DNA of 34,098 bases from a virus, in IMG/VR virus record IMGVR_UViG_3300042565_001978, positions 1 to 34,098 of that record. The stretch is one strand, 5' to 3'. The notes under the pieces were generated by a model. It was given only the letters and a program-made list of their open reading frames with translations. It was not told where the DNA came from and made no database searches. Of this stretch, positions 4,200 to 33,458 are shown one piece after another. Each line of letters begins with the position of its first letter. The first letter of the stretch is position 1. The position numbers were made by a program, and so were the translations under genes.

Positions 4200-4562
4200 A
4201 TGGCAACTTTTACAAAGGTACTTCTTAGCGGTTCAACTCAAGGCCAGCCAATTACAGTTGTTGCAACAGCATCTACTGGTACAACTATCCACGCAACAGG
4301 CACTTCATCAACAACACTTGATGAGGTTTGGCTATATGCAAACAACACTTCATCTTCACCTGTTTTATTGACGGTTCAATTTGGTGGCACTGGCGCAGTT
4401 CAACACGCAAAGCCAATTACCCTTGCACCACAATCAGGTGATGTTTTGATTGTTGCAGGCTTGCCACTTACAGGCACTGGCGCTGCAGCAAACACAATCG
4501 CAGCTTTTGCAGCAACTGCATCAGTAATCACAATTTCAGGTTATGTGAACAGGATTTCCTAA
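4200..4562 (+). CDS. small fibre or adhesin accessory protein (cassette copy 1)
   Basis: 120 aa, Thr/Ser/Ala-rich and all-beta in character, with no Cys. LDEVWLYANNTSSSPVLLTVQF lies at about residues 40-61. The same pattern (an attached 'NTSxxxxxxxxL' beta strand in a 100-120 aa protein) occurs in the gene at 18620, which also stands directly before a glycine-rich protein. The two look like analogous members of a duplicated cassette. It probably decorates or trimerises the adhesin; this is inference. Confidence 0.6.
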   Translation: MATFTKVLLSGSTQGQPITVVATASTGTTIHATGTSSTTLDEVWLYANNTSSSPVLLTVQFGGTGAVQHAKPITLAPQSGDVLIVAGLPLTGTGAAANTIAAFAATASVITISGYVNRIS

Positions 4563-5456
4563 GTGGCAAATCCAAACCGTAGAGGTCAGGCAGGTTCACC
4601 AGTTTCAACTGGTTCAACAGGTTCAAGTGCAACACCTTTTGCAAACACATCTTTTATTTTGCCTTACGGCTTGCGATTGCAACAAACAATCAATGCTGGC
4701 ACAACCTCAGTAACAATTCCCGCTGGCATTACTTTTGTTTATGCAATCTGCGTTGGTGGCGGTGGTAGTAGCTGTGGCGGTGGCGGTGGTGTTGCTTGGG
4801 GTTGGACTTTAGCAAATAGCACTTGTGTAGTTGGATCTGGTGGTAGCAATGCAAATCCTGGCGGCTACACACGGTATGGAAATGTAATCGCTGCTGGTGG
4901 TGGTGGTAATTCTGACACTGGCTCATTGGGTAGCGGCGCTGGGGGTGGTGCAGCCGTGTCAGGTGGCACAAATTATTGGGGTACGCCAGGTGGTTCAGGC
5001 ACCACCGCAGCCAAAGGGAATACTGGCGCTGGCGGTTCAGGTGGCTCTAGAACTACAGTGGCAGGTGCAACAGGTGCAAGCGGTGGTGATGGCATTTCAG
5101 GCGGCGGCGGGGGTAACAGCGACGGAACAGGTGCATCAAATCAAACTGGTGGCAATGGCGGTTCAGGTTTTGTCGGCGGCGGCGGTGGCGCCGCAAATAA
5201 TACAAGTGGTGTGCGTACAGGTGGCAATGGTGGCAATGGAATAAACATTTTTACTGGCGCAATTTATACAGGTGGAACAGGAACAACTGGTACAGGAACA
5301 AATGGCGCTAGTGGCGGCGGGGGCGGTATTGCAGGTAATGGCTCAAATGCTTCAGGGGCTACTGGCGGTAACGGTGGACTTGGCGGCGGTGGTGGTGGTG
5401 CGGGTAGTACTGCTTCAGGCGCAGGTGGCGCAGGAATTCTTTACCTATTCTACTAA
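4563..5456 (+). CDS. glycine-rich tail adhesin, paralogue 1
   Basis: 297 aa. The N-terminal domain carries LPYGLRLQQTINAG and SVTIPAGITFVYAICVGGGG (about 35-75). The rest is very glycine-rich with GGGGG blocks (about 71-290), and the chain ends in the aromatic tail GAGILYLFY. Polyglycine loops of this kind are known from phage adhesins such as T-even gp38, where they form polyglycine-helix bundles bearing receptor-binding loops. It has a GTG start directly after the preceding stop. Two paralogues are present (5466 and 18925), and all three share the LQQT...TIPxGI...VGGGG head and an aromatic C-terminus. Confidence 0.75.
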   Translation: MANPNRRGQAGSPVSTGSTGSSATPFANTSFILPYGLRLQQTINAGTTSVTIPAGITFVYAICVGGGGSSCGGGGGVAWGWTLANSTCVVGSGGSNANPGGYTRYGNVIAAGGGGNSDTGSLGSGAGGGAAVSGGTNYWGTPGGSGTTAAKGNTGAGGSGGSRTTVAGATGASGGDGISGGGGGNSDGTGASNQTGGNGGSGFVGGGGGAANNTSGVRTGGNGGNGINIFTGAIYTGGTGTTGTGTNGASGGGGGIAGNGSNASGATGGNGGLGGGGGGAGSTASGAGGAGILYLFY

Positions 5457-5465
5457 GGAGCAACT

Positions 5466-6365
5466 ATGAGCGTATCCATTTATAACAATTCATTATTTAC
5501 TGATACCCCTTATGGATTAAAGTTGCAACAAACATTTTCTGCAACAGGAACAACATCAGTCACAATTCCAACTGGTATTCAAAGAGTTTATGCAGTTTGC
5601 ATTGGCGGTGGCGGGGCGGGTGCTTCAAGTGCATCAGGTGCAAGCGGCGGTGGTGCAGGTGGTTATTCTGCTGGTTGGACTTTTATTGCAAACACAGTAA
5701 CCGTTGGAAGTGGTGGAACGGGTTCATCATCTGCTGCAAATGGAGCAAATGGAGTATCTTCACAATATGGAATGGTTTTCGCTGGTGGCGGTAGTGGTGG
5801 ATTGACTGGTTACTTTGGTGGTGGCGCAGCAGCAGGTGCCACCTCTGTAAACAATTCAGTAACTGCCACAGTTTCTTACACTGGTGCTCCTGCGGGAAGT
5901 AGTTCAACTCTTATTGGCTATGCCTCTAATGGTGGCAGCACTACTTCTGGTGCAACTTCAGCATTTTCTGCTAGCCCTTCGGGTGCTGGTGTAAGCACTG
6001 GCGGTGGTGGCGTAGCAAGAAACACAAACGCCGCAAATTCTGCAACTGGCGGTTCAAGCGGTCGCGGTTTGATTACTGGTGGCGGTGGCGGTGCTATGAA
6101 TACAGGCGCTTCACCAACTGGAAACATAACTGGCGGTAATGGTGGTACTGGCGATTTATTTGCAGGTGGAACTGGAACAACTGGAACTTTGCCAACACCT
6201 ACAGGCGGTGGCGCAGGCGGCGGCGCAGGTTACACAGGCGCAGGTGCCAATGCTTCAGGTCTTAATGGTGGCAACGGTGGTTCAGGTGGTGGCGGGGGTG
6301 GCGCTGGCGTTTATGGCGGAACCGCTGGTTCAGGCGGCGATGGCGTTGTTTATCTTTACTACTAA
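5466..6365 (+). CDS. glycine-rich tail adhesin, paralogue 2
   Basis: 299 aa, with the same architecture as the gene before it: PYGLKLQQTFSATGTTSVTI (about 16-35), then RVYAVCIGGGG, a glycine-rich body, and the end GDGVVYLYY. It has a strong aaggagcaact ribosome binding site. The head and tail are well conserved between paralogues while the glycine-rich body differs, which is what would be expected if the body sets receptor specificity. Confidence 0.75.
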   Translation: MSVSIYNNSLFTDTPYGLKLQQTFSATGTTSVTIPTGIQRVYAVCIGGGGAGASSASGASGGGAGGYSAGWTFIANTVTVGSGGTGSSSAANGANGVSSQYGMVFAGGGSGGLTGYFGGGAAAGATSVNNSVTATVSYTGAPAGSSSTLIGYASNGGSTTSGATSAFSASPSGAGVSTGGGGVARNTNAANSATGGSSGRGLITGGGGGAMNTGASPTGNITGGNGGTGDLFAGGTGTTGTLPTPTGGGAGGGAGYTGAGANASGLNGGNGGSGGGGGGAGVYGGTAGSGGDGVVYLYY

Positions 6366-6374
6366 GGAGTAAAA

Positions 6375-6587
6375 ATGGCTATCAGATACGAATACAACTC
6401 AACTTGTTGCGCTCATCTTTATATGGAAACACGCAACGCAGATACTGCTCCAATCGTGACCCAGTGTAATGTCTGCGGTCAGGGCGAGTATGTAGAAATA
6501 AATCAGACAGAGATTGAAACAATTGCCGAGCCTGTTTATCAGGTGCCAGTTGAAGCTGAAGTTGAACAGGTAGAGCCAACAGAATAA
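6375..6587 (+). CDS. small Cys-pair protein after adhesin (cassette copy 1)
   Basis: 70 aa. YEYNSTCCAHLYMETRNAD is followed by TQCNVCGQGEYVEIN, giving a CC pair (14-15) and CNVC (35-38) that could bind one zinc ion, then an acidic Glu/Pro/Val tail. A clear relative lies at 19833 (YKCDKCDANYLEQRKDA, FTNCNACDAGTYVEIS), also directly after a glycine-rich adhesin. It has an aaggagtaaaa ribosome binding site. It may be a chaperone or capping factor for the adhesin; this is inferred only from conserved pairing. Confidence 0.6.
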   Translation: MAIRYEYNSTCCAHLYMETRNADTAPIVTQCNVCGQGEYVEINQTEIETIAEPVYQVPVEAEVEQVEPTE

Positions 6588-6608: not shown

Positions 6609-7682
6609 TTGCGTTTTCATATTGTGGCACTGCCACACACACAGGTGACAAAAGAGTTCGCAACGTGCGCTTTCACAGAGAAGGTGCGCCGCTTCTGTAT
6701 TATGATGACAGACCTTGGGCATGAAGTCATTCTCTACGCTGGCGAAAAAAACGAAGCGCCAGTAAGCGAGCACGTGGTTTGCATCAGCGAGGACCTGCGG
6801 TCTGCGGCTGTTGGTAAGAGCCACTACACCACGACTTCATTTGACACCAACTTGCCACACTGGCAAGTGTTTAATGCAACGGTTATCAACAAAATGCGCG
6901 AGCGTTTAGAGCCGCAAGACTTCATTTGTGTAATCGGTGGCACTGCACACAAGCCAATCGCAGACGCTTTCCCGCAACACACGACAGTCGAGTTTGGAGT
7001 GGGGTACGGCGGCACATTTGCCAAGTATCGCGTTTTCGAATCTTATGCGTGGATGCACTCAATCTACGCAGGTTGGAAGAACCCAACAACGACAGACGGC
7101 AATTTCTTTGATGCTGTAATACCTGGATATCTTGAGCCTGAGATGTTTCCAGCAGGCAACGGCGACGGAGACTACTACTTTTACATCGGGCGCATCATCG
7201 ACCGAAAAGGCTACAGAATCGCTCAAGAAGTCTGTGAGCGTCTCGGCAAGCGTCTTATTCTCGCGGGTCCTGGCGAAGGCACAGGATATGGTGAATTCAT
7301 CGGCAACGTCGGGCCAGAGCAAAGAGCTGAGCTTATGGGCGGCGCGATTGCGCTGTTCGCACCCACTCTTTACATCGAACCATTCGGCAACATCGCGGTC
7401 GAAGCTCAGACTTGCGGCACTCCAACAATCACTACCGACTGGGGCGCATTCGTAGAAACAAACATAAACGGAGTGACTGGCTACAGATGCCGCACACTAG
7501 CAGATTTCGTTCGTGCAGCCGAGGACGTCAAGTCACTCGACCGTGCAGCGATTAGACAGCAAGCAATCGAGAAATACTCTCTCGCCACTGTCGGGAAAAT
7601 GTACGAAGAATACTTTGAAAGGCTGCTTACCCTTTGGGACGACGGCTGGTACCAACTCGAGACAGAAAAGGCCACTAAATGA
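6609..7682 (+). CDS. glycosyltransferase, GT-B fold (GT4-like)
   Basis: 357 aa. The N-terminal half is a Rossmann-like acceptor domain (MRFHIVALPHTQVTKEFATC). The C-terminal donor-binding half contains FYIGRIIDRKGY (191-202), ILAGPGEG (217-224) and EPFGNIAVE (257-265), the E-x7-E motif of retaining GT4 enzymes, followed by CGTPTITTDWGAF. It starts at a TTG preceded by cgggggaatcaa and overlaps the portal gene (ATGA). It may glycosylate virion proteins or nucleotides; its place between adhesins and portal favours a virion protein substrate. Confidence 0.82.
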   Translation: MRFHIVALPHTQVTKEFATCAFTEKVRRFCIMMTDLGHEVILYAGEKNEAPVSEHVVCISEDLRSAAVGKSHYTTTSFDTNLPHWQVFNATVINKMRERLEPQDFICVIGGTAHKPIADAFPQHTTVEFGVGYGGTFAKYRVFESYAWMHSIYAGWKNPTTTDGNFFDAVIPGYLEPEMFPAGNGDGDYYFYIGRIIDRKGYRIAQEVCERLGKRLILAGPGEGTGYGEFIGNVGPEQRAELMGGAIALFAPTLYIEPFGNIAVEAQTCGTPTITTDWGAFVETNINGVTGYRCRTLADFVRAAEDVKSLDRAAIRQQAIEKYSLATVGKMYEEYFERLLTLWDDGWYQLETEKATK

Positions 7683-11607: not shown

Positions 11608-12300
11608 ATGAAAACTGCACACAAAGTATCAATCGGCGTCTGTGACCCAGGCACCGTAAATGGCGAGTTCGCCTTCAAGCTCATTCAACTTGCACAGGTC
11701 AGAAGCGCAAAGCTCGGTCCGTTTGTTCGCGTCAAAGGTAATGGGCTTCTCAGCAAGTTGCGCAACAGGGTGGTCAAGACTTTCTTGGACAGCACAGACT
11801 CTGATTGGCTGTTGTTAATAGACTCTGATGAACAGCTGTCAGTTGCAGCATTTGACCAGTTGATAAACACCGCGCATCATTTAGAGCGCCCCGTGGTTGC
11901 GGGTTTAGTATTCGCAGCATTCAAAGACGAAGGCATCTACCCAAAGCCAGTCCCCGCGATTTTTCAAGACACCCCCGAGGGGTTTCTGCCATTATTTAAG
12001 TACGACCGCAACGCCGTTTTCGAGATAGATGCTTGTGGAACTGGCTGCATTCTAATCCACAGAAGCGTTCTCGAAAAGATGCGAGAAACCGCAGACCCAC
12101 ACCAAGGCCCAAACTGGTGCTGGTTTTGGGACGGTCCGCTTAACGGCGAGTGGATTAGTGAAGATTTGCTATTCAGCCGCAGGGTTCGCCAGCTTGGCTT
12201 TCCAATCTACGTGAACACCGCGGCTATCCTGCCGCACCAAAAGAGTTACTGGCTCGACGAGAAACACCACATAGCTTGGCAACTCAACGAGAACAGCTAG
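11608..12300 (+). CDS. glycosyltransferase, GT-A type
   Basis: 230 aa. DSDWLLLIDSDEQL (about 64-77) includes the metal-binding DSD at 72-74 of GT-A enzymes, and the N-terminus KVSIGVCDPGTVNGEFA fits a GT2-like nucleotide-sugar fold. DACGTGCILIHRSVLEKM and WISEDLLFSRRVRQLGFPI (about residues 184-202) match the acceptor-side 'ED..f..r....G' motif. It follows the capsid gene and is controlled by a putative pseudoknot leader. It could modify capsid or tail proteins. It is the second glycosyltransferase in the genome. Confidence 0.78.
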   Translation: MKTAHKVSIGVCDPGTVNGEFAFKLIQLAQVRSAKLGPFVRVKGNGLLSKLRNRVVKTFLDSTDSDWLLLIDSDEQLSVAAFDQLINTAHHLERPVVAGLVFAAFKDEGIYPKPVPAIFQDTPEGFLPLFKYDRNAVFEIDACGTGCILIHRSVLEKMRETADPHQGPNWCWFWDGPLNGEWISEDLLFSRRVRQLGFPIYVNTAAILPHQKSYWLDEKHHIAWQLNENS

Positions 12301-23617: not shown

Positions 23618-23654
23618 TTGACACTACGGGATGTGCCGTGCTGTACTTCTCCAA
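23618..23654 (+). promoter_or_regulatory. promoter for a leaderless purB transcript
   Basis: TTGACA (23618-23623), an 18-base spacer, and an extended -10 (TGC plus TGTACT at 23642-23647). The expected start site, seven bases after the -10, is the A of the purB ATG at 23654. No ribosome binding site is present before that ATG, consistent with a leaderless mRNA, a common arrangement in actinobacteria. Confidence 0.7.
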
Positions 23655-24892
23655 TGATAAACCGATACACAACGCCCGAAATGGTGGCGGTTTGGTCAGA
23701 CGACAACAAGTTAGTGACCTGGGGGCAAGTAGAACTCGAGGTTATGAAGGCCCAAGGACGGCGCGGGATACTCGACCGCGACCTATGGCGGGCCCTCGAG
23801 CTTGTGTTGCTGCCTACCACCGCAGAAATCGAGCACCAAGAGCAAACACTCAAGCACGACGTTATGGCCTTTTTAGAGGCCTGGCGCCAAAACACGGACA
23901 ACGAAGACCTGCACAGATTCTTGCACTACGGGCTGACCAGCTCTGACGTGGTCGAAACCGCACAGGCAGTTTTGTTGGCCGAAGCCAACTGGCTCATCTC
24001 TCGGGCGGGCTACGACCTGCTCGAGGCTCTAATCGCCCACGCCTTCAAGTACAAGGACACCCGCAGAATCGGACGCACTCACGGTCAGGCCGCCGAGCCG
24101 ACGACTTGGGGTTACAGGGTCGCAGACATCACCTTCGCGTTGGACCGAAGCCTAGACAGGTTCGCACAAGCCGCAAACGGAGTGCAGACTGCCCATGTCT
24201 CGGGACCGCTTGGCAACAACGCCCACGTGCCCAGAAGCGTCGAACTTGATGTCGCCAAAGATTTGGGCTTGAACGCACCAGACAGTGCCACTCAGGTGCT
24301 GATGCGAGACAACCTCGGAGCCTGGGCCTATAGTCTGGCGAATCTGGTCTCTATTTGTGAGGCTTTCGCACTCGAAGTGCGCCACGGCCAGCGCACAGAG
24401 GTCAGCGAGCTGTTCGAGGGCCGCAGTGCTGGCCAAGAGGGCTCGTCCTCAATGCCACATAAAGAGAACCCAATCACCTCGGAGAAGATATGTGGCCTTG
24501 CCAAAATGGCCAGGGCTTATGTCATGCCGATAACTGAGGGCATCGCTCTGTGGCACGAACGCGACATCAGTCACTCGTCTGTCGAGCGAATCGCAGTTCC
24601 AGACCTTTGTGCAATCACTGAACACGTGCTGAAGGCGACGGGAGATTTGGTGCGCAACTTGCGTGTGAACGCCGCCAAAATGCATTACAACGTCGTCACT
24701 GAAGGCAGCACCACAATGCTCAATCAGTACATCCAAGAGGGCTTGACTCGCAACGAAGCCTACCAAGCTGCAAAGAACGGGGCTCGCCAGCGCTGTCCAG
24801 AGCCTGGAAACCAACACACTTGGGACAGCCTGACAACGCTTAAACTCGCACTCGATGAGGCGCGAATGATGAACGGCGTGTCGTCTCTATGA
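23654..24892 (+). CDS. purB: adenylosuccinate lyase (PurB)
   Basis: 412 aa, Gram-positive PurB type. It opens MINRYTTPEMVAVWSDDNKL. TSSD (95-98), RTHGQ (141-145, with the catalytic-type His143) and the superfamily signature GSSSMPHKENP (263-273) in the flexible catalytic loop are all intact. Known reaction: removal of fumarate from adenylosuccinate (or SAICAR). In Z-DNA phages the host PurB converts 2-amino-dAMP-succinate to dZMP; here the phage brings its own. The ATG at 23654 is chosen over an upstream-extended frame because the extension crosses the promoter. It is transcribed divergently from the small-gene operon. Confidence 0.9.
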   Translation: MINRYTTPEMVAVWSDDNKLVTWGQVELEVMKAQGRRGILDRDLWRALELVLLPTTAEIEHQEQTLKHDVMAFLEAWRQNTDNEDLHRFLHYGLTSSDVVETAQAVLLAEANWLISRAGYDLLEALIAHAFKYKDTRRIGRTHGQAAEPTTWGYRVADITFALDRSLDRFAQAANGVQTAHVSGPLGNNAHVPRSVELDVAKDLGLNAPDSATQVLMRDNLGAWAYSLANLVSICEAFALEVRHGQRTEVSELFEGRSAGQEGSSSMPHKENPITSEKICGLAKMARAYVMPITEGIALWHERDISHSSVERIAVPDLCAITEHVLKATGDLVRNLRVNAAKMHYNVVTEGSTTMLNQYIQEGLTRNEAYQAAKNGARQRCPEPGNQHTWDSLTTLKLALDEARMMNGVSSL

Positions 24893-27912: not shown

Positions 27913-29988
27913 GTGTCACTAGATGTCTTCACTGCCGCTTTAAGATTCGCGGCCGTCGGGTGCTCGGTTGTGCCAGTGATGGCAGACGGCTCCAAGCGTC
28001 CTGGCATCGGCCAGTGGAAAGAGTACCAACACAAGCTGCCGACGACCGATGAACTGCAGGCTTGGTTCAAGGACGCGCAGGGTGTCGGCCTTATCACGGG
28101 CAAGATATCGGGCTCACTCGAAATGATGGAACTCGAAGGCCGCGCAGTAGCCGACGGCATACACACCCAAATCAAAGAGATGGCCCACGAAATGGGATTG
28201 GATGAACTTTGGGACAGACTGAACGCTGGCTATTGCGAAATGACACCCTCTGGCGGTCTGCACTGGCTTTATCGCTTAGATGGTGATGTCCCAGGCAACA
28301 CAAAGTTGGCTCGCAGGCCAGGCCAAGGTGACACTGTCGATGTGCTTGCCGAAACCCGCGGCGAGGGTGGTTTTGTGGTCGTGGCGCCCACGGGCGGCAC
28401 CTGCCATCCTTCAGGTGGGGTCTGGCAGTTGATTTCGGGCTCGATTGAGACAATACCGCTTCTGAGCCTTGACGAGCGCGAGACGATTCACTCCTTGTTC
28501 AAATACTTCGACCAACTTCCAAAGGCCGCGGTGATAGCTTCGGAGGTCTCGGCAGGTACTCGGGACGAGAACCGCGAACTTCCAGGAGACGACTACAACG
28601 CACGGACGACTTGGGACGAGCTTCTCTTGCCACTGGGCTGGAGCAAAGTCTTCACAAACCGCGGCACTACCGCGTGGCGCAGACCTGGCAAGTCCGAGGG
28701 CATCAGCGCGACCACGGGGTTTGACGGTACCGACTTTTTCTACTGCTTCAGCACCAGCACCATCTTTGACGCCGAGCGTGCCTATTCCAAGTTCGCGGTG
28801 TACACGCTGGTCGAGCACGGTGGCGACTTTCACAAGTCCGCGGCGGCTCTGAAAGCTAAAGGCTTTGGCACGGGCGGTGGCAGTTCGCTGCAGCCGATTG
28901 ACCTGAGTTCTTGGCTCGAGGCGCCAGAGCCTGCGCCAGACCAAGACTTTAAAGAGGTGCCCGCGACAGAGCCAGACACCAGCTGGCTGCCAAGAAATGT
29001 AGATTTTGAGGACGAGACCTCGGAGCCTGGACCGAGTGTGCTCTACCGCACCGACGGTCAGTGTTTGCTCTACGCGGGAAAGATTAACGCGATATTTGGA
29101 GAGTCCGAGTCTGGCAAGACTTGGGTGGCACTGGAAGCTGTGCGTCAGCAGTTGGTGCAGGGCAACAAGGTCTTTTACATTGACTTTGAGGACTCCAAGC
29201 GCGGCATTCGTGGACGTCTGAAGGCACTCGGGGTCTTGCGCGAGCACTTTGACCGCTTCAAGTACGCGAACCCAGATGGGGCTTACAACGAAATCGCTCA
29301 GCAAGCACTCCTCGGCTCGATTCGCGATTTTACACCCGACCTGATTGTCATGGACGGTGTCAACGCCGCCATGAACCTACTCGGACTCGACCTTGAGAAG
29401 AACAAAGACGCGACACAGTTCTCACAGGTTGTGCTGCGCCCGCTCCGTCTTTGGGGTGCGGCCGTCCTGACGATTGACCACGTAACCAAGTCGAAAGACA
29501 ACCGCGGCAATTACGCCATCGGTGCACAGGCCAAGCGTGCCGACATTGACGGCGTCGCAATCTCGGTTGATGTCTCCATGCCATTCGGCCGCGGCTCCAA
29601 CGGCAAGCTCAATCTTAAAGTCACCAAAGACCGCCCAGGCTTCGTGCGTGGTATGGCGCAAGAGGCATCCTTCATTGGTTCTGTGGACTTGATATCCAAG
29701 GCCGATGACGGCATCGAAATTTCAATCGTCGGTGGACAGACTGGTTTCTCGCCCCACGAGTATCTGATGCGGAAGCTGTCAGAGTTCATGGAGAAGCACG
29801 GAGCAGAATTGTCCACCAACCAAATCGTCCAAGCACTCGAGGGTGGAACCGACCAAATCAAAAAAGCGATTTCACAGCTGGAGAATACTGGGCACCTGTC
29901 AGTCCGAGCATCTGGCCAGGGGCGCTACTACAGCCACTCAAAACCCTACGTGCTTGGAGCACCACTACCATTCGAGGGGGTTATCTAA
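27913..29988 (+). CDS. primase-polymerase fused to RepA-like replicative helicase
   Basis: 691 aa. The N-terminal PrimPol domain (about 1-180) has GLITGKISGSLEMMELEG (59-76) with Glu73 and Glu75 where many members have Asp-x-Asp, then TPSGGLH (111-117) and ETRGEGGFVVVAPT (147-160). A primase C-terminal-like segment follows (YSKFAVYTLVEHGGDF, 291-306). The AAA ATPase has Walker A GESESGKT (396-403), Walker B LIVMDG (477-482) and His523 in TIDHVTK. A winged-helix-like C-terminus follows. It has a GTG start with aacgggggaata. This is the only polymerase-like gene in the window. Length is normal for actinophage primase-helicases. Confidence 0.87.
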   Translation: MSLDVFTAALRFAAVGCSVVPVMADGSKRPGIGQWKEYQHKLPTTDELQAWFKDAQGVGLITGKISGSLEMMELEGRAVADGIHTQIKEMAHEMGLDELWDRLNAGYCEMTPSGGLHWLYRLDGDVPGNTKLARRPGQGDTVDVLAETRGEGGFVVVAPTGGTCHPSGGVWQLISGSIETIPLLSLDERETIHSLFKYFDQLPKAAVIASEVSAGTRDENRELPGDDYNARTTWDELLLPLGWSKVFTNRGTTAWRRPGKSEGISATTGFDGTDFFYCFSTSTIFDAERAYSKFAVYTLVEHGGDFHKSAAALKAKGFGTGGGSSLQPIDLSSWLEAPEPAPDQDFKEVPATEPDTSWLPRNVDFEDETSEPGPSVLYRTDGQCLLYAGKINAIFGESESGKTWVALEAVRQQLVQGNKVFYIDFEDSKRGIRGRLKALGVLREHFDRFKYANPDGAYNEIAQQALLGSIRDFTPDLIVMDGVNAAMNLLGLDLEKNKDATQFSQVVLRPLRLWGAAVLTIDHVTKSKDNRGNYAIGAQAKRADIDGVAISVDVSMPFGRGSNGKLNLKVTKDRPGFVRGMAQEASFIGSVDLISKADDGIEISIVGGQTGFSPHEYLMRKLSEFMEKHGAELSTNQIVQALEGGTDQIKKAISQLENTGHLSVRASGQGRYYSHSKPYVLGAPLPFEGVI

Positions 29989-30647: not shown

Positions 30648-31682
30648 ATGGCAGGACGCTTAATTGCCGTTGTCGGCGGACAATACGGCAGCGAAGGCAA
30701 GGGAGCAGTAGCAGGTTACCTATCTGCGACATCTGATGCACCATTCATGGGCATCCGAGTTGCAGGACCAAACGCTGGCCACACAGTCATCGGCAAGGGG
30801 CCAGATGGGGAAGAGTCATACGCATGGCGCCTTCGCTCAATCCCAGTGAATGCAGTGACTGCACCAGAATCTGACCTCATCATCGCTGCAGGTTCTGAGA
30901 TTGACATGGAAGTCTTCAATCGCGAGTTGTCAGAGCTAGACAAGGCTGGATATGAAGCCAGTTCACGCATCATTGTGGACGACCAAGCGACAATCTTGGA
31001 GCCTATGCACCACGACATCGAGACTGCAGATAACATCCAAGCCCGAATCGGTTCGACAAGCAAAGGAATCGGTGCTGCACGTGCGGACCGAATCATGCGC
31101 AAGGCGACCTTGTTCGGTGGCGGGGTAGATACTTCAAAAGTTATTCGCGAGCACCTTCGCATGGGTGGCACTGCACTAATCGAAGGCACGCAGGGTTACG
31201 GCCTTGGCTTGCACGCAGGTCAGTATCCATTCTGCACCAGCCAAGACTGCCGAGCCATTGACTTTTTGTCACAGGCTGGTGTTTCACCTTGGGACAGTGC
31301 AGTAGATATCTTTGACGTCTGGGTGACTGCACGCACTTACCCGATTCGTGTGGCAGGCAATTCTGGCCCACTAGAGAGTGAGACCAGTTGGGAAGAACTC
31401 GGACTCGAAGCCGAGCGCACAACAGTGACTCAAAAGATTCGCCGTGTTGGCCATTTTGATGCAGCGCTGGTTCGCGACGCAGTTGTTGCAAACGGTGGAG
31501 CACCAAACGTTAAAATCGCACTCACAATGTTTGACTACATCTTTCCAGAACTGAAAGACCAGTCACAGATAGACATTTTATCTGATGACCAAGCCAAGTA
31601 CATCGCAGATATCGAGAAAGCAGTCAATGCTCGAGTTGCACTTGTTGGCACAGGTCCATCAACGATGGCTTGGGTGAAGTAA
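30648..31682 (+). CDS. purZ: PurZ-like 2-amino-dAMP-succinate synthetase (PurA family)
   Basis: 344 aa, much shorter than cellular PurA (about 430). The P-loop region reads GSEGKG (14-19): Ser15 replaces the catalytic Asp of PurA's GDEGKG, the change known in phage PurZ that makes room for the 2-amino group of dGMP. His45 (NAGHT) is kept. Other PurZ-like segments are GSTSKGIGAARADR (135-148), EGTQGYGLGLHAGQYP (179-194), CTSQDCRAIDFLSQAGVSP (196-214), TYPIRVAG (230-237) and GTGPSTM (334-340). Inferred reaction: dGMP + Asp + nucleotide triphosphate to 2-amino-dAMP-succinate. Strong aagggggaacaa ribosome binding site. Confidence 0.85.
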   Translation: MAGRLIAVVGGQYGSEGKGAVAGYLSATSDAPFMGIRVAGPNAGHTVIGKGPDGEESYAWRLRSIPVNAVTAPESDLIIAAGSEIDMEVFNRELSELDKAGYEASSRIIVDDQATILEPMHHDIETADNIQARIGSTSKGIGAARADRIMRKATLFGGGVDTSKVIREHLRMGGTALIEGTQGYGLGLHAGQYPFCTSQDCRAIDFLSQAGVSPWDSAVDIFDVWVTARTYPIRVAGNSGPLESETSWEELGLEAERTTVTQKIRRVGHFDAALVRDAVVANGGAPNVKIALTMFDYIFPELKDQSQIDILSDDQAKYIADIEKAVNARVALVGTGPSTMAWVK

Positions 31683-32077
31683 TGGCGTTCGAAAAATGGG
31701 AAGACCTGGCCGCGGCTCTTGGCAAGCTGCCACTCGAGGGCGACACTGCACCAGATGGTGTAAAGCAGCTGGCTGAGTGGTGGCTGGATGAGACTCGCAA
31801 CGAACTCGACTCTGTAATTCCAAAAGCCTTAGAGTACGGCAGCGCCGACCTCAAAGTGATTGGCTTTGCACTCAGTCAAATGATTGGCGAGCCAAAGGAC
31901 GTCTCAAACGACGAACTCGGCATCGCCTTCTACGTGCTGGGCAAGGTGGCCCGTCTTGTGGGCGGTTACGCAGACGGACGCAAGCCAAGCGACGACACGT
32001 GGCACGACATCGCTATCTACACCAAGATGGCGCAATACGCACGTCACAATGGTGAGTGGGGCGGGTTTGCAAAATGA
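31682..32077 (+). CDS. mazZ: MazZ-like nucleotide pyrophosphohydrolase
   Basis: 131 aa from the ATG at 31682, coupled to purZ by TAATG. WWLDETRNELDSVIPKALEY (33-52) gives the E-x3-E helix (Glu37, Glu41), then YGSADLKVIGFALSQ and SDDTWHDIAIYTKMAQYA (103-120) with Asp residues for the second metal-binding helix: the all-alpha MazG-type fold. Phage MazZ converts dGTP to dGMP, the PurZ substrate. The assignment is by motif pattern plus position next to purZ. Confidence 0.75.
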   Translation: MAFEKWEDLAAALGKLPLEGDTAPDGVKQLAEWWLDETRNELDSVIPKALEYGSADLKVIGFALSQMIGEPKDVSNDELGIAFYVLGKVARLVGGYADGRKPSDDTWHDIAIYTKMAQYARHNGEWGGFAK

Positions 32078-32502
32078 TTGTGTACCTTGCCGCACCGATT
32101 GACTTCGACGAAGGCTCTCGCATCACACAACTAAAAAACGAAATCAAGGCTCACTTCAAAGAGCAAGAGTGCGTTTGGGTGTATGACCCAGCTGGCGCGT
32201 GGAATGCACCGAATGATTTAGTGCCCGATGAGTTTGTGCATTGGTCAAATCTTAAAGTGCTAGCAAACGCAGACCTTGTCGTGGCCGTGTTGCTGCGCAG
32301 CGTCTTTACAATCGGCACGACAATCGAAATACAACACGCAGTTGATGCAGAGATTCCAGTCATCGTGATTGGCGATGTTGGCCTCAACAGCGTCGTGCTC
32401 ACAGCACTTGAAACCCAAGTATACGAGTCTATTAAGGAATGGAGTGACCATGGCAGCCCTATTGTACCGCGTTCTGAGTCCTACGGGTTTAGCACCGACT
32501 AA
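32074..32502 (+). CDS. nucleoside 2-deoxyribosyltransferase-like protein
   Basis: 142 aa from the ATG at 32074 (ATGA overlap with mazZ). MIVYLAAPIDF (1-11), WVYDPAGAWNAP (35-46), NLKVLANADLVVAVLL (59-74) and GTTIEIQHAV (81-90), with Glu85 as the probable nucleophile, match the deoxyribosyltransferase / deoxynucleotide N-glycosidase superfamily. Such enzymes swap bases on or cut bases from deoxynucleosides or their monophosphates. Placed among the Z-pathway genes, it may shape the dAMP or dGMP pool; substrate unknown. Confidence 0.7.
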   Translation: MIVYLAAPIDFDEGSRITQLKNEIKAHFKEQECVWVYDPAGAWNAPNDLVPDEFVHWSNLKVLANADLVVAVLLRSVFTIGTTIEIQHAVDAEIPVIVIGDVGLNSVVLTALETQVYESIKEWSDHGSPIVPRSESYGFSTD

Positions 32503-32881
32503 AGCGTACGCAGATGATGCAGGGTTCGACCTGTACTGCGATGCAGAAATGGTGATTGAACCAAGCACATTCGTGGACGTCCCGCTGGGAGTTGCAATCA
32601 AAGTGCCTGAGGGCACTTGGGGCTTGCTCACAGCTCGTTCTAGCACACTGCGCAAGCACGGTCTCATGGTTGCGCAAGGCATTATCGATTGCGGTTACAC
32701 TGGCCCACTTTTTGCGGGTGTTTGGAACATGACCGACAAGCCAGTCAAGATTGAACCTGGCATGCGCTTGGTGCAATACATCCTCATGACCAATGCCTCT
32801 CTTGATGTAGAGGCGCAGCAGGTTGACGAACTCCCCAAAACCGACCGTGGCGCTTCGGGTTTTGGGAGTTCTGGTGTCTGA
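32450..32881 (+). CDS. dut: dUTPase
   Basis: 143 aa, ATG with ggagtgacc ahead of it, overlapping the previous gene by 53 bases. All five trimeric dUTPase motifs are seen: DDAGFDLY (22-29), ARSSTLRKHG (62-71), GIIDCGYTGPL (77-87, Asp80), GMRLVQYIL (104-112) and DRGASGFGSSG (132-142). Known reaction: dUTP to dUMP and pyrophosphate, keeping uracil out of DNA and feeding dTMP synthesis. Motif 3 has CGY where many have ADY. Confidence 0.88.
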   Translation: MAALLYRVLSPTGLAPTKAYADDAGFDLYCDAEMVIEPSTFVDVPLGVAIKVPEGTWGLLTARSSTLRKHGLMVAQGIIDCGYTGPLFAGVWNMTDKPVKIEPGMRLVQYILMTNASLDVEAQQVDELPKTDRGASGFGSSGV

Positions 32882-33458
32882 TAAGCCACTCATCGAAATT
32901 GCTCAGGAGCTCAGGGACTTGGCCACTTGGTACAAGGACCTGAGCGCCGAGCTCGAGCCTGGACGCACAGGCGAGCGCACAACCCGTTCAGTCCCAGGAC
33001 CTAGACTGCCACTTCGTGTCGATGTGCTTGATGCGATTCTTGACATTCGGACTGATACACTTCTCTGGGAAGCCGAACTCAGATATGAGCTTAAGCAACC
33101 AGCAGTCCCAAACACACAGGCTGAACGCTCGCTGTTTTGGGTTGCCGACGCGATAGAAAAATGGCCGACTGACAATCGTATTCAGTTAATCGAAGAGATT
33201 AGCTATTCGACTAGCAAGCGGCACTACCAAGTCAAGATTCTACTAGGATTGGAGCAGAGGCCCTTGTCAGCAAGACTAAGATGTCCGTATTGTACAAAGT
33301 CGTTAGTTATCAAGCTAGACCAAGGGCTTCTGCTCTGCCGTAATCACAGTTGTAGGTGCGCGGCTGAAGGCTGTGCTTGTCTTAATGGAAAGGGGCACTC
33401 ATGGAACGAGACCGAATGGCCGCGCCTTGGGCTCATGCTCGACACGCCAGCCGTGTGA
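32874..33458 (+). CDS. zinc-binding protein, unknown function
   Basis: 194 aa from the GTG at 32874 (tgggagttctg ahead; an ATG at 32823 would lie deep in dut). The N-terminal two thirds are helical (EIAQELRDLATWYKDLSAEL and VDVLDAILDIRTDTLLWEAE). The C-terminus has CPYCTK, then LLCRNHSCRCAAEGCACLN, a cluster of Cys and His suggesting two zinc sites. Actinophages often have such a protein near HNH and terminase genes. A DNA-binding role is plausible. Confidence 0.65.
   Translation: MSDKPLIEIAQELRDLATWYKDLSAELEPGRTGERTTRSVPGPRLPLRVDVLDAILDIRTDTLLWEAELRYELKQPAVPNTQAERSLFWVADAIEKWPTDNRIQLIEEISYSTSKRHYQVKILLGLEQRPLSARLRCPYCTKSLVIKLDQGLLLCRNHSCRCAAEGCACLNGKGHSWNETEWPRLGLMLDTPAV

Follow-up and report, generated by a model that had tools for sequence, protein, structure and literature searches.

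A PurZ0-type gene module in an uncultivated tailed phage that probably carries 2-aminoadenine in place of adenine and has no recognisable Pol I

In the phages described so far as carrying 2-aminoadenine (Z) in place of adenine, the step from dSMP to dZMP is said to depend on host enzymes (PMC8342488, PMC12884076); according to the first of these studies, enzymes for the step had not been found on phage genomes, and the second assigned it to the host. Nearly all described Z-phages depend on Pol I, in the form of the Z-preferring DpoZ. The exception is cyanophage S-2L, which has a primase-polymerase and no other polymerase (PMC8065100) and reaches full Z replacement with this non-selective enzyme through depletion of dATP (PMC8065100, PMC8342488). 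DmtZ and DutZ have been assayed in phages Ghobes and Wayne, the only two in which hydrolysis of dATP and dGTP by DutZ has been assayed (PMC12884076).

Here, a stretch of viral DNA of 34,098 nucleotides (the window) was analysed. It was compared gene by gene with five large relatives, whose contig ends were found to differ. In four of them (G001, G003, G004 and G005) the last gene of the window, which encodes an HNH protein, lies directly upstream of its first gene, a small gene before the terminase, with about 160 bases between them. The window is therefore a nearly complete genome, of about 34.1 kb, of an uncultivated tailed phage, with an end gap of some 135-160 bases. Its G+C content is 52%, Rfam and tRNA scans gave no matches, and it belongs to a metagenomic clade of 36 related contigs defined by a close PurZ match; the relatives of its module are actinophage-like. 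Two glycosyltransferase-family genes (6609-7682 and 11608-12300) are found among the head genes. Four consecutive genes downstream of a tail-fibre-like gene (4200-6587) have no match in the five large relatives; they form a variable segment and possibly encode host-recognition proteins.

It is probable, at roughly 85%, that adenine in this phage is replaced by Z via the PurZ0 route. This reading draws on the genes present, the families in which they fall, retained catalytic residues, the order and conservation of the module and the absence of Pol I; what the enzymes do is predicted by homology, and Z in virion DNA is likewise a prediction. A probable Z genome based on PurZ-type chemistry had been proposed in a preliminary description, and a PurZ model score above cutoff, placement in the PurZ0 clade and the retained dGMP-pocket residues bear this out. 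The resistance to host restriction enzymes that this description attached to a Z genome is a point known from the literature. The PurZ of the module described there also stands; the subtype and the MazZ partner assigned to it do not, and DmtZ, DutZ and PurB were absent from that account. Together with the missing Pol I, these are four added features that alter the earlier picture.

The purZ0 gene (30648-31682, plus strand) is preceded by a strong Shine-Dalgarno sequence, AAAAGGGGG, and encodes a 344-aa protein of the PurA superfamily, a putative succino-2-amino-deoxyadenylate synthetase of the PurZ0 type. The GQYGSEGKG motif with Ser15, His45 and the CTSQDCRAIDF segment reported earlier were all confirmed in this frame. 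The protein scores 343.7 bits against the NCBIfam model amino_Aden_PurZ (cutoff 300), and PurA models score well below their own cutoffs. Its top PDB relative is 7vf6 (E 1e-86), with the phiVC8 and S-2L PurZ structures at about 1e-28. Aligned to nine named PurZ0 proteins, together with five PurZ and two PurA sequences, it shows the PurZ0 features GSE instead of GST, [AG]GPNAGH, PIRVAGNSG and RRVG, and has T-M-F-D at the T-M-x-D segment found in most of the PurZ0 proteins. In a 62-row tree, built by a quick method with SH-aLRT support and without bootstrap, the clade of the window is nested inside PurZ0 with a support of 100, apart from PurZ and cellular PurA. The phylogeny suggested earlier as a check thus shows no branching within cellular PurA and leaves the Z reading unrefuted. 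The call of a PurZ-like enzyme holds, with the subtype changed from the S-2L type to PurZ0.

The dGMP pocket of S-2L PurZ, whose residues are listed in PMC8342488, was mapped onto the window protein, and every listed residue was found to be identical, except for Tyr203, which is Phe195 in the window. PurZ-type S136 and T258-T261 are also present, and the catalytic Asp is replaced by Ser. The protein neither branches with the S-2L/VP5 PurZ nor keeps the S-2L ATP-base residues N305, F306 and Q308, which are likewise not kept in other PurZ0 proteins. The predicted activity is probably the conversion of dGMP and aspartate to dSMP with GTP as the donor. PurZ0 enzymes reportedly use GTP. One sentence in a recent study reverses the donor preferences of PurZ and PurZ0, in conflict with the introduction of the same paper (PMC12884076).

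Ser15 had been taken as a mark of PurZ. The residue itself is real, and it is less specific than claimed: when genomes were scanned using the PurZ0 alignment, many PurA-like proteins encoded on chromosomes were recovered whose residue here is Ser or Gly, and GSEGKG occurs in dozens of them. In the tree, these chromosomal Ser/Gly-type proteins group with PurZ0 and PurZ, apart from the Asp-type archaeal PurA. Ser15 was rejected as a diagnostic of Z, and Ser alone is no proof of Z-DNA because chromosomal relatives also carry it. The chromosomal proteins (L174-L246, e.g. L176:2947-6843 and L198:3127-6972) come from many bacteria and some archaea. At 51 of 58 chromosomal loci they are accompanied by both an RNase_H_2+DUF429+AAA_18 fusion and a DCD/dUTPase-fold protein; as a rule the former adjoins on the upstream side and the latter on the downstream side. 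It is possible that these loci are related, on the cellular side, to the PurZ-DutZ pair of phages; a literature search found no paper on them.

The gene that follows purZ0 (31682-32077, plus strand) encodes a 131-aa all-helical protein of an uncharacterised family linked to PurZ0. Its coupling to purZ0, described earlier, is confirmed, with the start moved from a TTG at 31670 to the likely ATG at 31682, in a TAATG overlap. The proposal that it is a MazG-fold, MazZ-like protein found no credible support from sequence, profiles or PDB structures. The protein has no match in Pfam or NCBIfam and no credible one among PDB sequences, and hhalign detected no profile similarity to MazZ-1 (E 0.36) or to DUF5664-1, the Wayne/Makoto protein (E 0.44). 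The MazG-HisE fold and the motif of the E35, E38, E50, D53 type that mark MazZ-1 are not seen in it. An AlphaFold2 model (pLDDT 81) is all-helical, and Foldseek on the PDB returned nothing significant and no MazG structure. A MazG identity was rejected on these searches, in which the hhalign profiles covered MazZ-1 and DUF5664. Against viral structures, the model matches its own family, then weakly DUF6378 and Nmad1 proteins, and profile comparison likewise gave a weak resemblance to a DUF6378-like pair (E 7e-4, probability only 26%). Acidic residues are conserved in the family.

The association of this family with PurZ was examined in 63 IMG/VR loci obtained by a pattern search built on the 131-aa family alone, in which PurZ was not used. 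Of the 63, 62 also hold PurZ; the one exception, L148, has a contig end just upstream of the family gene, and in L137 PurZ is relocated. Among isolates, the family occurs in Microbacterium, Gordonia, Streptomyces, Curtobacterium and Micrococcus phages, and its counts of 18, 6 and 5 in the first three equal the PurZ counts there. Within the data examined, it was found only in PurZ0 phages. Arthrobacter PurZ0 phages carry in its slot a gene identified as DUF5664-1 (PMC12884076).

The next gene, dmtZ (32074-32502, plus strand), overlaps the preceding one by four bases and encodes a 142-aa protein of the NDT family, a predicted dAMP hydrolase and deoxyribose-phosphate transferase. By alignment, its Y4, D10, P39, N59 and E85 correspond to Y6, D12, P57, N77 and E103 of Ghobes DmtZ, and all five of these tested catalytic or specificity residues, the Tyr-Asn-Glu triad among them, are invariant in 17 relatives. 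Structure prediction gave an NDT fold. The lid residue Trp124, a model-only proposal (PMC12884076), is absent from the window protein, which has Val107 there. The dutZ gene (32450-32881, plus strand) encodes a 143-aa protein of the trimeric dUTPase family, a predicted dATP/dGTP/dUTP diphosphatase, which scores above the TIGR00576 cutoff. Among 1,621 phage records, its best 30 matches all come from PurZ0-phage genera at 50-55% identity, with a steep drop to 40% or less in the sampled phages of other genera. We infer from sequence that it would hydrolyse dATP and dGTP. A conserved gene at 32823-33458 overlaps the end of dutZ; it is present in all five large relatives at 75-90% identity and has weak matches only, to phrog_1467 and DUF7340/DUF7341.

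Apart from these neighbours, the phage encodes its own adenylosuccinate lyase. The purB gene (23654-24892, plus strand; open frame from 23561) gives a 412-aa protein from the likely ATG, which scores 344 bits against TIGR00928 (cutoff 326) and has intact active-site motifs GLTSSD, GRTHGQ and GSSSMPHKENP. The better-covered members of the clade also encode a PurB, as do the named PurZ0 phages Galactica, Keanu, Hiyaa, Spocter, Archimedes, Sapo, Frizzle and Ghobes, and in seven metagenomic PurZ0 contigs (L146, L151-L156) purB adjoins purZ in divergent orientation. A literature search of partial coverage found no paper on phage PurB in Z synthesis. The whole module is retained across the clade and also in L173, whose PurZ is 53% identical. 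In this contig (CAIOKD010000330.1, binned as a Verrucomicrobia MAG), PurB, PurZ0, the 131-aa gene, DmtZ and DutZ occur in the order of the window, and beyond these five none of the window's genes was matched; it is probably a misbinned phage contig.

No match to family A DNA polymerase (PF00476) was found in the window genome or in any of 11 clade contigs, four of them of 33-35.5 kb, whereas all five isolated PurZ0 phages searched (Archimedes, Galactica, Parvaparticeps, Makoto and Wayne) have one. A second PurB-bearing group (G017, G021-G026; 37-45 kb) is also without a PF00476 match. The end gap is too small for Pol I, and an unrecognised polymerase could still be encoded in the genome. PurB and Pol I are nearly mutually exclusive among the PurZ0 phage records (G000-G031, W01-W10), strikingly so by count. 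As a rule this was rejected, and we attach no statistics to it: on the tree it amounts to only two to three changes and one to two independent pairs, too few for a test, and there are four exceptions that carry both genes (Galactica, Keanu, Archimedes and Ghobes).

The sole DNA polymerase candidate found is a 691-aa primase-polymerase/helicase (27913-29988, plus strand), with PF09250 and AAA_25 above their cutoffs; a Prim-Pol domain was present in 28 of 31 records searched. It resembles that of phage Peas; Pol I was not matched in the Peas record, and no purZ is present in the part of that record examined. Read by eye from the alignment, its first motif appears to be MELEG (ExE), compared with DxD in Makoto and Goodman, and Peas gp60 also has ExE. 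The polymerase activity of the window protein is uncertain because of this ExE.

A pathway can be proposed from these genes. DutZ, possibly aided by the 131-aa protein, would cleave dATP and dGTP with release of pyrophosphate, and PurZ0 would join dGMP and aspartate to give dSMP, probably with GTP. Phage PurB, alongside host PurB, would convert dSMP to dZMP, which host kinases would raise to dZTP. DmtZ would destroy dAMP and could pass the deoxyribose-phosphate of dAMP on to Z. Once dATP is depleted, Z would be inserted at A positions by a polymerase that does not favour it, whether the primase-polymerase of the phage or the replicase of the host; by analogy with S-2L, such a non-selective polymerase is the most likely arrangement. 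There is an even chance, in our view, that the phage represents a second independent Z-phage line, after S-2L, in which base choice would be made wholly by pool cleaning, with its own dSMP lyase and a new enzyme family dedicated to PurZ0, the 131-aa family. The clade draws attention to this protein family, which is tied to PurZ0 and has no assigned function, and its small genomes without Pol I are a natural setting in which to ask whether removing dATP is by itself sufficient for full Z replacement.

Other readings of the locus were weighed against replacement of adenine via PurZ0. The PurZ-MazZ pair of the S-2L/phiVC8 type, in which an ATP-using PurZ works with an adjoining MazG-fold dGTPase, was the system named in the preliminary description, and the position of the 131-aa gene directly after purZ, where mazZ would lie, and its all-helical product with conserved acidic residues would suit it. 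This is nevertheless very unlikely, as the enzyme falls in PurZ0 and is without the ATP-base residues, the neighbour showed neither a MazZ-1/DUF5664 profile match nor MazG among its Foldseek matches, and no DatZ turned up in the window genes that were scanned. An S-2L-type pair is therefore not upheld: the enzyme is PurZ0, its neighbour is not demonstrably of MazG fold, and the pool cleaners are DmtZ and DutZ.

The absence of DpoZ bears on the remaining readings. It would fit ordinary purine auxiliary metabolism, where a PurA-like protein and PurB encoded in one genome raise the output of AMP in a phage with normal DNA, but the Ser in place of the catalytic Asp, the PurZ-type S136 and T258-T261, the position outside the PurA clade and the linkage to DmtZ and DutZ, which in relatives act against dATP (PMC12884076), make this highly improbable. 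The lack of a Z-selective polymerase across the clade could also point to partial or regulated substitution, with phage DNA a mixture of A and Z. We hold such a mixture to be unlikely, given that S-2L is fully replaced despite a non-selective primase-polymerase (PMC8065100, PMC8342488) and that DutZ and DmtZ would deplete dATP here.

Several known systems are close to that of the window. The Gordonia phages Ghobes and Archimedes have PurZ0, a homolog of the 131-aa protein, a separate DmtZ and DutZ in the order of the window, with a PurB-like gene elsewhere; they differ in having DNA polymerase I, extra small genes inside the module and a more divergent PurB-like protein. The closest named PurZ0 proteins are those of the Streptomyces phages Galactica and Keanu (55% and 52% identity), which also have a domain of the 131-aa family and a PurB at 41%. 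Unlike the window, these phages have 80-kb genomes and DNA polymerase I, their 131-aa domain sits at the end of a longer protein, and the length of their DutZ gene allows a DmtZ-DutZ fusion. Wayne, an Arthrobacter phage, shares the PurZ0 module, and its DmtZ and DutZ have been assayed (PMC12884076), whereas it has DUF5664-1 in the 131-aa slot, a fused DmtZ-DutZ, Pol I and no PurB. S-2L differs in having an ATP-type PurZ, a true MazG-fold MazZ, DatZ in place of DutZ and DmtZ, no PurB, and a PrimPol without detectable similarity to that of the window. Yet it is a Z-DNA phage with a primase-polymerase only (PMC8065100), and it is like the window in having no Pol I.
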